A stretch of DNA of 64,000 bases from assembly GCF_002104995.1 (NCBI RefSeq), contig NW_024468250.1:372001-436000 (forward strand), read 5' to 3'. A program made the translations under genes and the position numbers. This document shows, piece by piece, positions 19,768-25,227 of the stretch (its first letter is position 1; every line of letters begins with the position of its first letter). The notes beneath the pieces were generated by a model, which did not search any database, had not been told where the DNA came from, and saw nothing but the letters and a program-made list of their open reading frames with translations. This DNA comes from Linderina pennispora (Eukaryota; Kickxellomycota; Kickxellomycetes; Kickxellales; Kickxellaceae).

Positions 19768-20035
19768 GGTGTGTTTACTGTCGCCCGCCGTTCTCCTTTT
19801 CTCTCCCAGATTAAGCCAAACCACCTACCCCTGTTTCCTCAGTAAGCCTTTTCAACACCTTTTCCCTACAGCAATCTATTATCCATGACCTCTCTGTATT
19901 CTGACGAGCCTTGGAACGAGCGCAACCTGGACAACTATCTGGTCCGGGCCCAGGAGCCGTTCAACGCCGAGGCCAAGCTCGAAAAGCTGGTCGAGCACTA
20001 CATCACGCCGACCGACCGCCACTTCCGCCGCAACC

Positions 20036-20049
20036 ATGGGAGGTCATTC
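20036..20049. repeat. Left target duplication and terminal inverted repeat
   Basis: Target duplication ATG at 20036-20038, then the 11-bp inverted repeat GGAGGTCATTC at 20039-20049. The empty site would read CAACCATGGTTC, which keeps the sulfite oxidase frame. Because flanking bases are palindromic (CCATGG), alternative boundaries one to three bases away cannot be excluded. Confidence 0.8.
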
Positions 20050-20500
20050 AGAGCTAGTTATCTGCATAACAACTATTTATACATGTTTAAACTATTGGCA
20101 ATTTCAGTGAAATAAAAATTTCACCCAAACCGCCATCGGCATCTTGGAAAAGTTTCAGTGAACATAATTTCAACCAGAAAGAAAAACCTTTGCATATTTG
20201 GGGTTAATTATCATTGGGCAACAAAAGTCAATATCTCAATAGATGTGGCTAAGCAACCACAAGGAAATTATGTTCACTGAAACTTTTCCAAGATGCCGAT
20301 GGCGGTTTGGGTGAAATGGCAAAAAAAATATTTGTATTTTTAAAATCAATTATACACACAAAAACATTCTGGACACAACAATTATAAATATCTGTTACAA
20401 AAATATCTAGTAGCAAAAAATAGTTCTGAAAACGATTATTCAAATAACTATCTAACAAAATTGTAATTTACTAAAATTTACAAGTCCAGGAATGACCCCC
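20039..20500 (+). repeat. Left 462-bp terminal repeat of the transposon
   Basis: Starts GGAGGTCATTC and ends GAATGACCCCC, so it looks like a complete short inverted-repeat element on its own. It contains a 51-bp perfect inverted repeat (arms 20120-20170 and 20265-20315) around a 94-bp loop (20171-20264). The 180 bases after the hairpin are very A/T-rich and probably hold the ORF1 promoter, because the ORF1 ATG lies in the last 9 bases of this repeat. Confidence 0.93.
20120..20315. repeat. Long hairpin in left terminal repeat
   Basis: Two 51-bp arms that are exact reverse complements (TTCACCCAAACCGCC... and its mirror) flank a 94-bp loop. The loop begins CAACCAGAAAG and ends CCACAAGG. The same hairpin is present at 23798-23993 with the loop reversed. 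Confidence 0.93.
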
Positions 20501-22126
20501 TTCCAAAGTGAACTAAGAGCATTACTAACAAGAGTGTTGTCAGAAAGAAGAAATATGCCTGATGTTGCTGATGCTAGGTATACTGCTAGAGGTGTAGAGC
20601 AACTTGGATTTAAGCACTCTTCTGAAATATTTGTTGACTCATTCATTGTTGAGGTTGTTGTTGAGAAATGCAGTGAATCAGATATAAAGGTGAAGCAGAA
20701 GTCAGCTAGTGTTAGATTGCATAAAGTATTTGGAGAAGGTTTTGGTTATAAGTATGTTAGAAGCAAGATTAGTGAGCAATATGGACCAGTTGCTATTTAC
20801 AAAGTATCTACCCCAAACATTGCAATAACTAGTTCTTTGTTAACAGTGAAGTTTGCTACTATGGCTGATCACAAAATATTTCTACAGAATTATGACATCA
20901 CAATGGATTGTATGAATATCTCATCTAGAAATATTATCTATAAATACCTTTTAGAAAGAGGAGTTGAAAAGAAAGATGTTGTAGATGATTTACACAAGTC
21001 TGGCTCTAACTGTATTAGCTGGTTTACAAAGAAAGGAGATGTTAAAGTTAAGAACAAAATTTATAACAAGTTTATTCAGCTTCTTGAGAGTGGTGAAGTT
21101 CGTAATCCTCTTAGTTCCAAACTTTCTGAATTTGTAATGCCAACTTTGCACAACTTTGGAGAAACATTGTATGCTTGCAGAAACTCTGGTTTGACTAGGA
21201 TAGAACTAACTGTACATTCTTCTCAGATGCAAACAGTTGAATGGAATAGTAACTTGCTTCTTAACACAGTTCAGTTTATGAATGAATGCAGAACATTTGC
21301 AACTTCTTATGAAAAGCAGTGGAAAGCACTTGTTGATAAAGTTAGTAGTTGTTATACAGTTTGCATTTATGTGAGACAACAGCATACTCTAGCATATTGT
21401 CATTGGTTTAACTCTATCACATCAAAGAAGCAAGGAATTATTAAGAAACTAAACAAGAATGATGATCCAATGGTAGTTGTTGCTAATCTCTCATTCAACA
21501 ACAGACCTACACTTTATCAAATATATGATTCACTTGAGAGTGGTCTTGAAACAGAAAAAGTTCTTAGAAGAGTTGATGAGAATATAACTATTGTTCCAAG
21601 TCAGAGAAACTCCTTCTGGTCAACTTATCCTACAACTAAGCAGTATCACACTTTTGAAGAGATGGGATTAGTTAACTATAAAGGAATGCATATTGGTTGG
21701 ATAGATAGTAAGCAAGCAAAGAGTAAGATATGTCTATCAAAAATGTCAGAGGATAAATATTCTGCAAAAGAGGAAAACATCAATGCATTAACAACAGCAA
21801 TAGACAATATCACACTTGATGAAACTAGCCATATATTTATCAAAGAGAATACAGATCTGAAACCTTCATTGTATAGAGTTGCTTACAATGTTCTTCAGTT
21901 AGGTGATGAATTTACAGCTACACATTATGCACTCCATACTTTTAGAGGACATTCATACTTCTATGTTGATATTCTTATTAAAGGGAGAGATAAACAGCCA
22001 ACTCTTATTAGGACACCAGTTGACAGTTCTATTGGAAAAGCAATTTCTCAACAGTTAGGAGAAAGAAAGCAACAAATATATCTAAGAGTTATAAGTGTGG
22101 GATATAGAACAATCACAGTTGAATAG
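20492..22126 (+). CDS. Transposon ORF1, unknown protein of 544 residues
   Basis: An uninterrupted AT-rich frame whose ATG lies inside the right-hand inverted repeat of the left terminal copy (gaATGACCCCC). The product is soluble, mixed alpha/beta in appearance, Lys-rich, with no signal peptide or membrane segment. Harbinger elements normally encode a Myb/SANT-like DNA-binding partner, but I see no such motif here. The middle part (about residues 180-260) has KIYNKFIQLLESG and later GLTRIELTVHS. A K-x-Y-x-K then R-x-E layout occurs in some rolling-circle initiators, but I cannot name a family and the likeness may be chance. A role in DNA binding or transposition is inferred only from its place in the element. 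Confidence 0.8.
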   Translation: MTPFQSELRALLTRVLSERRNMPDVADARYTARGVEQLGFKHSSEIFVDSFIVEVVVEKCSESDIKVKQKSASVRLHKVFGEGFGYKYVRSKISEQYGPVAIYKVSTPNIAITSSLLTVKFATMADHKIFLQNYDITMDCMNISSRNIIYKYLLERGVEKKDVVDDLHKSGSNCISWFTKKGDVKVKNKIYNKFIQLLESGEVRNPLSSKLSEFVMPTLHNFGETLYACRNSGLTRIELTVHSSQMQTVEWNSNLLLNTVQFMNECRTFATSYEKQWKALVDKVSSCYTVCIYVRQQHTLAYCHWFNSITSKKQGIIKKLNKNDDPMVVVANLSFNNRPTLYQIYDSLESGLETEKVLRRVDENITIVPSQRNSFWSTYPTTKQYHTFEEMGLVNYKGMHIGWIDSKQAKSKICLSKMSEDKYSAKEENINALTTAIDNITLDETSHIFIKENTDLKPSLYRVAYNVLQLGDEFTATHYALHTFRGHSYFYVDILIKGRDKQPTLIRTPVDSSIGKAISQQLGERKQQIYLRVISVGYRTITVE

Positions 22127-22134
22127 CAGCCATT

Positions 22135-22374
22135 TTAAAACATAGTATAAGCAACCATTCTCTCCATATCTCTATGGAAAGTATGACAAACATCATACAC
22201 ATGTTCAACCCTTACCTCACAATCAGTAGCAATATGTTGGATCCAATTACGCACTTGTATTGCTAAGTCATCACTCATATCAAAGTCATGAATAAGTAGC
22301 AGAGTAAGCATATCTCTTTCTTCCTCACACATCTCAGCTAAATGTTGCTTGAAGAAGTTCTGGAATGATCCCAT
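22135..22374 (-). CDS. Small antisense frame in the transposon
   Basis: 79 codons on the minus strand, filling the gap between ORF1 (stop at 22126) and ORF2 (ATG at 22426). It has a normal ATG at 22374 and predicts an acidic, helix-rich protein (EEERDMLTLLLIHDFDMSDD). The tight fit in the only non-coding gap and its codon style suggest it is real, but 79 codons in AT-rich DNA can arise by chance. Confidence 0.4.
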   Translation of the reverse strand: MGSFQNFFKQHLAEMCEEERDMLTLLLIHDFDMSDDLAIQVRNWIQHIATDCEVRVEHVYDVCHTFHRDMERMVAYTMF

Positions 22375-22425
22375 TTTCTAAAATTGATAAAAGTTGAAAT
22401 TTTTATTTATGACTACCTCACACAG

Positions 22426-23655
22426 ATGGACAATCAATTACAAGAATTAAGAGAGAAGGAGTGGAATGTGCTCTACACAACAAAGTGGAGATTTCTTGAT
22501 GAAGACTGGTTAGTACATAAACAACAGAAGTACTATAGGAGTGAAGCTCATGAAGTGAAAGAAATAAAGCTCATCAAAGATACACTTGTAAAGCAACTTG
22601 GAATGATCCCTGTGTTCTTCTTCTTAAATGTTCTATTTGGTGGAAAGCAGTATCCATGTCCTTACAGAAATGTTGAGAAAGGACTCTTGATTTTGTACCA
22701 GTTAGTTGCTGGGCTATCAATCAATGAGATGGAGAGGTTTATTCCTAAGAGCAGCTACCAAGTAATTCATAATATGTTCTATATCTCAGAGTTAAGTGAG
22801 TTGAACAAGAAGCTTTCACACTACTTGCACACAATGTTCTCCACTCCAGAACTAAGAGTGATCTCAGCAAAGATTCAGAATCCAACAAACTTTAAGCATA
22901 TAACTCTTATGTTAGATGGACATGACTCACGAGCTCTACATAATGGTGCATACAAACCAAATCTTTATTCCTTCAAGTTGAAGAAGTCAGGATATAGAAC
23001 ACAAGTTTGCATTGATTTGAATGGAATGGTTGTCCTTGTTTCACCAACTGAGGAATGTAAAGACCACCCAGACTCTAAGATGATTAAGAATATGTCACTA
23101 TTGAAATACATCTCTCCAGTAGATTGTGTTGTTTTAGATGGTGGTTATCCTCAAAGTATTCTGGAAGAGTTAACAGAAGCAGAAGAGAATGAGAATTTTG
23201 GAATGCATAACTTTTGCTTACCAGTTAGAAAGCCAAGAGGAACCAACTTAAGTGAAGCAGAGTTAGAATATAATAGCAAACTTGGGTCATTTAGATCAAT
23301 GGTTGAGAGCACATTTGGAGAACTAGGTAACACATTTAAGAGACTATCAAATAGAGAAGTTGTGAGAATTAGAAACACAACTGTATACAATGTGCAGTTT
23401 AAACTCTGTTGCTTACTCTACAATATGAAGAAGATCCTAGCAGCTAGTAAAGTTCCTGTTGAACATCACCACACACTTTGGGTTCTATCTAACTTTGACT
23501 ACCCTAGCAACAACCAGGAGAGATCAACACATGCTGAAGTTGGAAGTACTTTACCACAAAAAGTAGAGTTAGAAGCTTCAATGAGAGAACTACAAGATAG
23601 ACTGATTCAAGCTAAAATTGATGAGTCAATGAACTTCTATGTAGACATGTCATAA
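22426..23655 (+). CDS. Transposase, Harbinger/IS5-like DDE type (ORF2)
   Basis: 409 residues from the first ATG (22426). The catalytic core fits the DDE_Tnp_4/Harbinger group: the first Asp in LMLDGHDSRAL (D164), the second in VVLDGGYPQS (D238), and the Glu in FRSMVESTFGEL (E294). The block between them has the family wording LPVRKPRG, then E-x2-YN and R-x2-VE-x2-FG. A helical N-terminal part (residues 1-150) probably binds DNA ends. It cuts and joins the 11-bp inverted repeats and should produce 3-bp duplications, which matches the observed ATG. The frame is intact with all three acidic residues present. Confidence 0.9.
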   Translation: MDNQLQELREKEWNVLYTTKWRFLDEDWLVHKQQKYYRSEAHEVKEIKLIKDTLVKQLGMIPVFFFLNVLFGGKQYPCPYRNVEKGLLILYQLVAGLSINEMERFIPKSSYQVIHNMFYISELSELNKKLSHYLHTMFSTPELRVISAKIQNPTNFKHITLMLDGHDSRALHNGAYKPNLYSFKLKKSGYRTQVCIDLNGMVVLVSPTEECKDHPDSKMIKNMSLLKYISPVDCVVLDGGYPQSILEELTEAEENENFGMHNFCLPVRKPRGTNLSEAELEYNSKLGSFRSMVESTFGELGNTFKRLSNREVVRIRNTTVYNVQFKLCCLLYNMKKILAASKVPVEHHHTLWVLSNFDYPSNNQERSTHAEVGSTLPQKVELEASMRELQDRLIQAKIDESMNFYVDMS

Positions 23656-23716
23656 GTAACTTTTAAAATAGGAATTCTCAGTAAGAAATTTGCATTGATA
23701 GAAAATGCTTCAATAA

Positions 23717-24178
23717 GGAGGTCATTCAGAGCTAGTTATCTGCATAACAACTATTTATACATGTTTAAACTATTGGCAATTTCAGTGAAATAAAAATTTC
23801 ACCCAAACCGCCATCGGCATCTTGGAAAAGTTTCAGTGAACATAATTTCCTTGTGGTTGCTTAGCCACATCTATTGAGATATTGACTTTTGTTGCCCAAT
23901 GATAATTAACCCCAAATATGCAAAGGTTTTTCTTTCTGGTTGAAATTATGTTCACTGAAACTTTTCCAAGATGCCGATGGCGGTTTGGGTGAAATGGCAA
24001 AAAAAATATTTGTATTTTTAAAATCAATTATACACACAAAAACATTCTGGACACAACAATTATAAATATCTGTTACAAAAATATCTAGTAGCAAAAAATA
24101 GTTCTGAAAACGATTATTCAAATAACTATCTAACAAAATTGTAATTTACTAAAATTTACAAGTCCAGGAATGACCCCC
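23717..24178 (+). repeat. Right 462-bp terminal repeat of the transposon
   Basis: Same length and orientation as the left copy and identical by eye outside the hairpin loop. Arms lie at 23798-23848 and 23943-23993; the loop (23849-23942) is the exact reverse complement of the left loop. The internal junctions show no target duplication, so this is not simply a second element inserted next to the first. Confidence 0.93.
23798..23993. repeat. Long hairpin in right terminal repeat, loop inverted
   Basis: 51-bp arms identical to those of the left copy. The 94-bp loop begins CCTTGTGG and ends CTGGTTG, the reverse complement of the left loop. Confidence 0.93.
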
Positions 24179-24181
24179 ATG
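24168..24181. repeat. Right terminal inverted repeat and target duplication
   Basis: GAATGACCCCC at 24168-24178 is the right-end inverted repeat and ATG at 24179-24181 the second target copy. The ATG inside this repeat opens a frame into the sulfite oxidase sequence but out of its reading frame. Confidence 0.8.
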
Positions 24182-25227
24182 GTTCTATTCCCAACCTCTG
24201 CAGAGACTCGTGGCGAATGCAGGTCGATGTTGATGCGGTGCTGCCCGCCAAAACACAGCTGTCGTCAAGCATCAAGCTCGCGGATCTGACCAAGCTGCCT
24301 GCATTCGAGGTCGTTGCTGTCCTCGAGTGTGCTGGAAACCGCCGTGATGGACTCAAGGCAATCAAGCCTGTCAACGGCGTCATCTGGGGACCGGGTACGG
24401 CGTCAAACTCGCGCTGGAGCGGGTGCCGCCTGCGTGATCTGCTCGTCAGCGTTGGAGTGCCAAAAGATCTGTGCCACCCGTTCTACTCGACCCCCAAGCA
24501 CGTCGAATTTGCCGGATTCGGCGATGCCAAGGAGGATAAGCACTATGCGTCGTCAATTCCACTGGAGTGGATTATGAACCCACTGAACATGGTGTTGGTT
24601 GCATACGAGATGAATGGCCAGCCTCTGACGCGAGACCACGGATTCCCCGCACGGATTGTTGCTCCTGGCATCATCGGCGCGCGCTGGGTCAAATGGCTAA
24701 AGTACATCCGGGTGCAGGACGTGGAGTCTGACAGCTTCTACCAAAAACTCGACTACAAGATCCTACCGCCGATGGCCGATGCCCACAACTGCACAGAGTT
24801 TTGGCCCAGATTCCCAGCCCTGATGGAGCTCAATATCCAGAGCGTCATTTGCCGCCCTGCGCCAGGAGAGGAGCTACAGGTTGGCCGGCCGTTCGAAGTC
24901 CAGGGCTACGCGTTCTCTGGCGGCGGCCGTGCGGTTGACCGAGTTGAGGTGTCGCTTGATGGCGGGAAGACATGGGACCTGGCAAGGATCTATACAATGC
25001 AGACAAAGTGCAAGGATGGCCAGCGTGACTGGAGCGCGAAGCAGTGGGCGTGGACTCTGTGGGCATACCGCATCGACCACGTACCAACCGGTTGCACAAT
25101 TGCGTGCCGTGCCTGGGATTCTGGAGGCAACACGCAGCCAAGCGAGGCCGTATGGAATTACCGCGGTGTCATGAACAACTCTGTCTATAAGATCAAGCCA
25201 CCAGTTCGGCTGGAGAGCCGCCTTTGA

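Follow-up and report, generated by a model that had tools for sequence, protein, structure and literature searches.

Hairpin loops in two orientations at the ends of a composite-like DDE_Tnp_4 transposon of Linderina pennispora

How can the two ends of one DNA transposon be identical in sequence and nevertheless carry an internal segment that points in opposite directions? This question is raised by an element of the fungus Linderina pennispora that occupies positions 20039-24178 of the 64,000-nucleotide stretch analyzed here (hereafter the window). The element encodes a transposase of the DDE_Tnp_4 type, is built on the plan unit-INT-unit, where INT stands for the 3,216-bp interior, and is flanked by a 3-bp target site duplication (TSD), ATG. 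Its two 462-bp units lie in direct orientation and differ solely in a 92-bp loop enclosed by the arms of a hairpin, which is in the 'flip' orientation in the 5' unit and in the 'flop' orientation in the 3' unit; upon reversal of one of the loops, the units match at 462 of 462 positions. An earlier interpretation of the same letters, which we call the sequence-only reading, had recognized both the identical direct units and the exact reversal of one loop, with its estimates of a 94-bp loop and 51-bp arms now corrected to 92 bp and 54 bp. It also held that each unit is bounded by 11-bp inverted repeats. Terminal inverted repeats (TIRs) are indeed present on each unit (GGAGGTCATTC at its start, GAATGACCCCC at its end), but their inverted match comprises 10 of the 11 positions.

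We propose, with a probability of about 0.62, that this is a recently active composite-like transposon whose identical hairpin arms exchange strands, thereby inverting the loops and yielding symmetric units, in which the same half of the unit stands on both sides of the hairpin.

Loop orientation across the genome

In our searches with the units, the best 40 of 184 and the best 40 of 182 candidates were scored; the unit counts given below are thus lower bounds, and the counts of loop orientation are not an unbiased census. At least 88 loops of the window's family (family 1) were seen, three of them in symmetric units that cannot be scored for orientation, and the remaining 85 ordinary units comprise 44 flip and 41 flop. 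The other copies are therefore not all of one orientation, and the flip and flop loops described in the sequence-only reading recur in the genome; scoring solo units, full elements, loop orientation and TSDs in the genome sequence, as that reading had suggested, returned both orientations along with solos and TSDs. Orientation differs among units that are otherwise indistinguishable, since 22 family-1 units with an identical 370-bp outer sequence are divided into 12 flop and 10 flip. Nine full elements, the one in the window among them, share one length and were compared over their interiors, two further ones of other length being left aside; seven of the eight others show no mismatch to the window's interior and the eighth shows one, in keeping with the recent event postulated from the letters alone, and the loops at the ends of the nine occur in all four combinations (flop/flop in five, flip/flip in two, flip/flop and flop/flip in one each).

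Matches to the transposase gene, ORF2, number at least 105 (123 candidates, 102 scored) and include a second family at ~75% identity; another open reading frame (ORF) of the element, ORF1, has at least 80 matches (the best 80 of 163 candidates scored), among which this second family appears at ~51% identity. Family 2 has 397-bp units with 60-bp arms and a 46-bp loop, the arms being related to those of family 1 and the loop unrelated, and it shares the plan of family 1, with similar TIRs, 3-bp TSDs, solo units and an array. Used as queries, its two loop isomers have disjoint best places (40 for flip, 34 for flop), 60 of which were read (40 flip and 20 flop), all 60 in the expected orientation; seven flop places outside the 60 are six symmetric units and one unit at a contig edge. 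Thirteen identical family-2 units are again split, seven flip to six flop.

On trees with soft polytomies, from which bases near the loop (inner arm) had been left out, orientation has no detectable phylogenetic signal among 83 family-1 units, where a minimum of 18 changes is required and 119 of 1000 shuffles lie at or below this number, nor among 56 family-2 units, where the minimum is 11 changes and 337 of 1000 shuffles lie at or below it.

As for movement, both ends were seen for 84 family-1 units, namely 27 5' units, 28 3' units, 27 solos and 2 units inside arrays, and arrays with a 3678-bp period are present. Solos carry 3-bp TSDs in 17 of 27 cases in family 1 and in 12 of 16 in family 2, on C24 one solo with a 3-bp TSD is nested in a full element, within its transposase gene, and matching 3-bp flanks accompany 12 of the 17 family-1 unit pairs with both internal junctions. 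The idea that a unit is mobile alone thus gains from the existence of solos with TSDs, although recombination between two units can also produce solos. The commonest TSDs at outer flanks are ATA (8), TAT (7) and ATT (5), and those of full elements include ATG, ACG, GCA and TCT; the TSDs are mostly A/T-rich trinucleotides, not TWA alone. Copies of both families also cluster and nest in one another (L061; C35, C133, C144, C157, C178, C196, C212), some of them near contig ends, which suggests insertion-rich regions.

Symmetric units and the hairpin stem

Symmetric units were found in both families. The left-hairpin-left form was seen once among the 88 of family 1 (C112:872438-872796) and the right-hairpin-right form twice (C135:4350-4911 and C190:983055-983617), while family 2 has three left-left units (C190, C24, C124) and three right-right units (C112, C140 and C1, the last partly read). 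A TSD is missing in seven of the eight symmetric units with both flanks read, and the left flank of the right-right unit on C190 is recognizable by eye as the beginning of INT in reverse. If an arm of one unit were exchanged with the opposite arm of a second unit, both the symmetric forms and the missing TSDs would follow; because such units would join halves of two insertions, the absence of a TSD is to be expected. Symmetric forms would likewise result from one template switch at the hairpin. Family-2 symmetric units are recorded at C190:981340-981633 and as L434-L437, and the left-left form resembles a miniature inverted-repeat transposable element with very long TIRs.

The hairpin itself is internal, separated from the ends of the unit by 79 bp on one side and 183 bp on the other. 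As folded single-stranded DNA it has a z value of -15.8, with none of 200 shuffles folding equally well, and a search of the window that allowed up to 400 bp between copies gave no inverted pair exceeding 33 nt other than the two hairpins. Perfectly matching arms are present in 50 of 83 family-1 and 39 of 60 family-2 units. In 33 of the 34 family-1 units with at least one arm unlike the window's, the arm-to-arm match is lost, which indicates that the arms drift separately. Many of the mismatches in the arms of family 2 (L359-L418) are C-to-T or G-to-A changes at two CpG sites, a hint of methylation-driven decay.

Two family-1 copies have no substitution in the 200-bp hairpin (one 1-base gap) and 29 in the other 262 bp (Fisher p=4e-8; the copy tested is one of seven that were set against the window). 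Such uniformity between copies could come from function or from exchange of hairpins among copies. Between the families, the arms reach a local similarity score of 39 against a maximum of 20 in 300 shuffles, whereas the loops score 11 and 19 against shuffle maxima of 23 and 22; since the arms are alike while the loops differ, the element probably uses the stem as a cis-acting site. No further independent hairpin family that could serve as a control was found in the Linderina pennispora sequence examined.

Genes of the element and its insertion site

ORF2 matches DDE_Tnp_4 (PF13359) at 9.4e-14 (51.8 bits, cut-off 24.8) and DDE_Tnp_1 at 6.2e-6 in Pfam. Within family 1, the ratio of nonsynonymous to synonymous substitution rates (dN/dS) is 0.03-0.08 for ORF2 (four comparisons) and 0.20 for ORF1 (one comparison, with the copy on C190); between the families it is 0.11 for ORF2 and 0.31 for ORF1, at a dS above 1. 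ORF1 takes its start codon from the 5' unit, in whose right TIR it begins. ORF3 sits between the two genes on the opposite strand and has the same length in family 2. Many relatives of ORF2 from Mucoromycota and metagenomes (P0021-P0140) bear a chromodomain (PF00385), which Pfam does not find in the ORF2 of the window. An LTR (long terminal repeat) retrotransposon was rejected as an identity for the element, for Pfam finds no reverse transcriptase in ORF1, ORF2 or ORF3, and what lies between the direct repeats is a DDE transposase.

ORF1 is a member of a conserved orphan family present in metagenome contigs and early-diverging fungi, in which a sequence search gave 20 proteins and a profile search the identical 20. 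It has only weak, scattered Pfam matches; no Myb match was obtained in the 20 family members scanned or in ORF3, and no His-Me finger nuclease match in ORF1 or ORF3. A sequence search of the PDB with ORF1 gave no match, and no relatives were confirmed in viral contigs and prokaryote genomes. The 847-aa protein P0020 (on a contig of 2,654,782 bases) is a distant relative of ORF1 that has a long additional region and is assigned to no accepted Pfam family; no relatives of it were found in phages. In P0131, a predicted protein of Rhizomucor pusillus (contig of 1,125,233 bases), an ORF2-type transposase is fused to ~90 residues of an ORF1-like N-terminus (31.3 bits), in a gene order that appears reversed with respect to the element. 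Metagenome contigs of 3700 and 3607 bases recur in the match lists of both ORF1 and ORF2. The fusion and the shared contigs together suggest that ORF1 and ORF2 travel together elsewhere.

At its insertion site, the element interrupts a predicted sulfite-oxidase-like gene. The flanks, rejoined with a single ATG, form an uninterrupted frame of 399 aa, the 3' part of which matches Oxidored_molyb (2.1e-45) and Mo-co_dimer. Since this frame is otherwise open over its 399 aa, the insertion is probably recent, or else a second copy of the gene exists.

Table 1. Coordinates of the element, its parts and the host gene in the window.
Feature	Position	Strand	Basis or remark
Host gene (sulfite-oxidase-like), interrupted, 5' part	19885..20035	+	rejoined frame
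Left target duplication copy (ATG)	20036..20038	.	ATG on each side; removal of one copy gives a continuous host frame
5' terminal unit, loop 'flip'	20039..20500	+	unit alignment
Left TIR of 5' unit (GGAGGTCATTC)	20039..20049	+	
Hairpin arm 1 of 5' unit, 54 bp	20118..20171	+	
Hairpin loop of 5' unit, 92 bp, flip	20172..20263	+	
Hairpin arm 2 of 5' unit, 54 bp, perfect complement	20264..20317	+	
Right TIR of 5' unit (GAATGACCCCC)	20490..20500	+	contains ORF1 ATG 20492-20494; family 2 likewise
ORF1, 544 aa, orphan family, Rep_trans-like motif order (D49, D135/D139, Y191-N-K193, R236-I-E238)	20492..22126	+	
ORF3, 79 aa, small conserved ORF	22135..22374	-	79-aa homologue in the same place in family 2
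ORF2, 409 aa, DDE transposase	22426..23655	+	Pfam
3' terminal unit, loop 'flop'	23717..24178	+	unit alignment
Left TIR of 3' unit	23717..23727	+	
Hairpin arm 1 of 3' unit	23796..23849	+	
Hairpin loop of 3' unit, 92 bp, flop, exact reverse complement of 20172-20263	23850..23941	+	
Hairpin arm 2 of 3' unit	23942..23995	+	
Right TIR of 3' unit	24168..24178	+	
Right target duplication copy (ATG)	24179..24181	.	
Host gene (sulfite-oxidase-like), interrupted, 3' part	24182..25227	+	rejoined frame and domain match

Exchange between hairpin arms, its alternatives and known systems

The model that we favor would operate as follows. INT encodes the predicted DDE_Tnp_4 transposase, the orphan ORF1 and the small ORF, and is flanked by direct units with TIRs of their own. 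Judging from the TSDs, the transposase would insert the whole unit-INT-unit, and probably solo units as well, with a 3-bp target duplication, and recombination between direct units or replicative amplification may then give rise to arrays and to some of the solos. The hairpin arms would exchange strands through recombination or through a switch of template while DNA is being copied, a process of which we see the products. The loop would be inverted when the exchange stays inside a single unit, and the symmetric forms would be created when it involves two. Arm exchange would be frequent relative to point mutation, so that the isomers coexist in approximately equal numbers. From the letters alone, either hairpin-primed replication or recombination between the arms had been envisaged; the latter is now the best supported and is strengthened by the symmetric units, while hairpin-primed replication of an end is not shown, given that the hairpin is internal and that only the loop inverts. 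Parvovirus-like terminal resolution is likewise not supported, with the hairpin placed well inside both unit ends.

Several points weigh against this model. Of 28 unit pairs from both families, 21 have loops of like orientation at the two ends of the element (p=0.0125): 13 of 17 family-1 pairs (p=0.049), for which internal junctions were required on both sides, arrays were included and 4 of 21 rows were dropped (2 agreeing, 2 disagreeing), and 8 of 11 family-2 pairs (p=0.23), chosen by spacing alone. In addition, near-identical copies of one insertion keep their loop orientation in three of three groups, two of which were defined by extended flanks (197/197 and 199/199 bases) and the third by 19 bases; the 199-base flank falls on the beginning of a transposase gene of family 2 and may reflect two insertions at one site of a repeat, and a flank match between C144 and C146 was not counted because the units are 22 substitutions apart and the similarity is one-sided. 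One symmetric unit, that on C135, does have a matching TSD, TAT. What is observed are the presumed products of the exchange, and the uniformity of the hairpin may come from exchange between copies and not from selection. The concordance of ends and the three stable groups suggest that flipping in place is not very fast; the symmetric units without TSD, in the opposite direction, point to exchange among resident copies.

It is also conceivable, though doubtful in our view, that ORF1 nicks the hairpin in a Rep-type fashion in the course of rolling-circle or hairpin-primed replication, and that inversion is a by-product of mobilization. ORF1 shows D, D-x3-D, Y-x-K and R-x-E in an order similar to that of the catalytic motifs of Rep_trans and MOBT enzymes (PMC6499999, in the portion consulted), with D135/D139, Y191-N-K193 and R236-I-E238 kept in a nearly invariant order among family members, and Rep_trans enzymes, which according to the consulted portion of a paper of 2026 (PMC13107129) appear restricted to bacteria next to a distant family described from archaea, bind palindromes and nick hairpin origins. 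The 3678-bp period of the arrays would suit such replication, and both the concordance of ends and the stability of same-insertion copies fit a coupling to mobilization. In hhalign comparisons of ORF1 with narrow Rep_trans sets, a motif-collinear alignment scored 23.75, exceeding all 100 column shuffles (maximum 20.86), but the reversed alignment reached 21.05; with a broader set, the best score was 20.78 over 25 columns outside the motifs, a value attained by 1 of 150 column shuffles and 16 of 150 block shuffles. With HMMER, the top score of ORF1 was 4.0 bits, next to 2.9 for reversed decoys, and the Rep_trans model PF02486 matched none of the 20 ORF1 family members scanned and had 0 matches across the Linderina pennispora genome. 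Membership of ORF1 in Rep_trans is consequently not claimed, as the promise of the narrow sets was gone with the broader set and the HMMER decoys. A fuller version, in which ORF1 would be a eukaryotic Rep_trans-type tyrosine nickase that nicks the stem and replicates a unit-INT circle, which the DDE transposase would reinsert with a unit at each end, inversions and symmetric units arising by strand switching, strikes us as speculative and rather unlikely; if true, it would mean a transposon that couples rolling-circle replication to DDE integration and has LTR-like direct ends.

The agreement of ends in 21 of 28 pairs would also be accounted for if no inversion were going on and a few old flip and flop masters had spread, with recombination between copies mixing the outer sequences; many identical copies could stem from few, and polytomies conceal the number of changes. 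We find this improbable, since even trees with soft polytomies need at least 18 and at least 11 changes, no fewer than most shuffles, discordant ends are found on elements with identical interiors, and the symmetric units testify to arm exchange. The exactness and fixed boundaries of the inversion are what a dedicated site-specific invertase would produce, but Pfam recognizes no recombinase in ORF1, ORF2 or ORF3, inversion is seen in two families whose loops differ, and resolvase-like inversion within a unit would not give symmetric units, which makes such an enzyme very improbable. Finally, palindromes are hard to assemble; both orientations, however, are found in two families and at numerous loci, each with its own flanks and TSD, and the assembly separates 4.1-kb copies that are identical except for their loops, so that we give scarcely any credence to an assembly artefact.

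To which known elements does the Linderina transposon compare? PIF/Harbinger elements prefer TWA or CWG as TSD and encode a Myb-like second protein. The Linderina element resembles them in its DDE_Tnp_4 transposase, short TIRs and 3-bp TSD, and differs from them in that no Myb-like protein is recognized, its TSDs extend beyond TWA and its direct units are long; the label Harbinger-like given to it by the sequence-only reading therefore holds for the transposase and the length of the TSD, but not for a TWA-only TSD or a Myb-type protein by Pfam. Parvoviruses, for their part, display flip and flop isomers at true termini made of inverted repeats, which are resolved by the Rep/NS1 nickase. Two isomers of a palindromic end and all four end combinations on one element are common to both systems, whereas the Linderina hairpin sits inside a unit that is directly repeated, and a nickase is here only a candidate (ORF1).

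The inversion of a spacer is in itself known. In yeast, the spacer between inverted repeats inverts by template switching (PMC8604942), and loop inversions recur in the chloroplast trnH-psbA region (PMC2903610), both as given in the portions of these articles consulted. The likeness lies in the recurrent inversion of a loop between inverted repeats; the arms there measure ~9-18 bp, whereas the Linderina hairpin belongs to the conserved parts of a mobile element, whose many copies show approximately equal isomers and include symmetric units.

The unit-INT-unit plan has a precedent as well, namely KolobokP, composite-like DNA transposons of animals, of the form LTDR-INT-LTDR, described by Kojima and Bao in 2022 (PMC9587614, on which the comparison draws in part). 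The long direct repeats, which the sequence-only reading set against the usual inverted ends of DNA transposons, are thus already on record for a DDE transposon. KolobokP has LTDRs of ~450 or 660 bp with short TIRs of their own, solo LTDRs, (LTDR-INT)n-LTDR multimers, short TSDs, and an INT with a DDE transposase and a second protein (PMC9587614). The same plan of TIR-bearing direct units around INT, with solos and multimers, is found in Linderina; the differences lie in the DDE_Tnp_4 transposase, the orphan ORF1, the fungal host and the hairpin with its inverting loop. Judged by Pfam and not by a separate alignment of the C/DxxH signature, ORF2 did not prove to be a Kolobok transposase, its matches being to DDE_Tnp_4 and DDE_Tnp_1. 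In the KolobokP paper 'hairpin' occurs 0 times and 'palindrom' 3 times. Among the papers listed in searches of the open-licence literature, no description of the Linderina lineage or of inverting loops in it turned up.

Taken together, the Linderina element appears to represent another lineage of composite-like DDE transposons, a second one, fungal and with a transposase other than that of KolobokP, and long direct terminal repeats may thus be a recurrent solution for DNA transposons. Moreover, near-identical copies with two loop states and two symmetric forms, present in two families, amount to a natural assay of strand exchange in long hairpins, from which the rate of exchange, its timing relative to transposition and its dependence on element proteins could be read with long reads. 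The element thereby offers a natural system for the study of hairpin DNA recombination.

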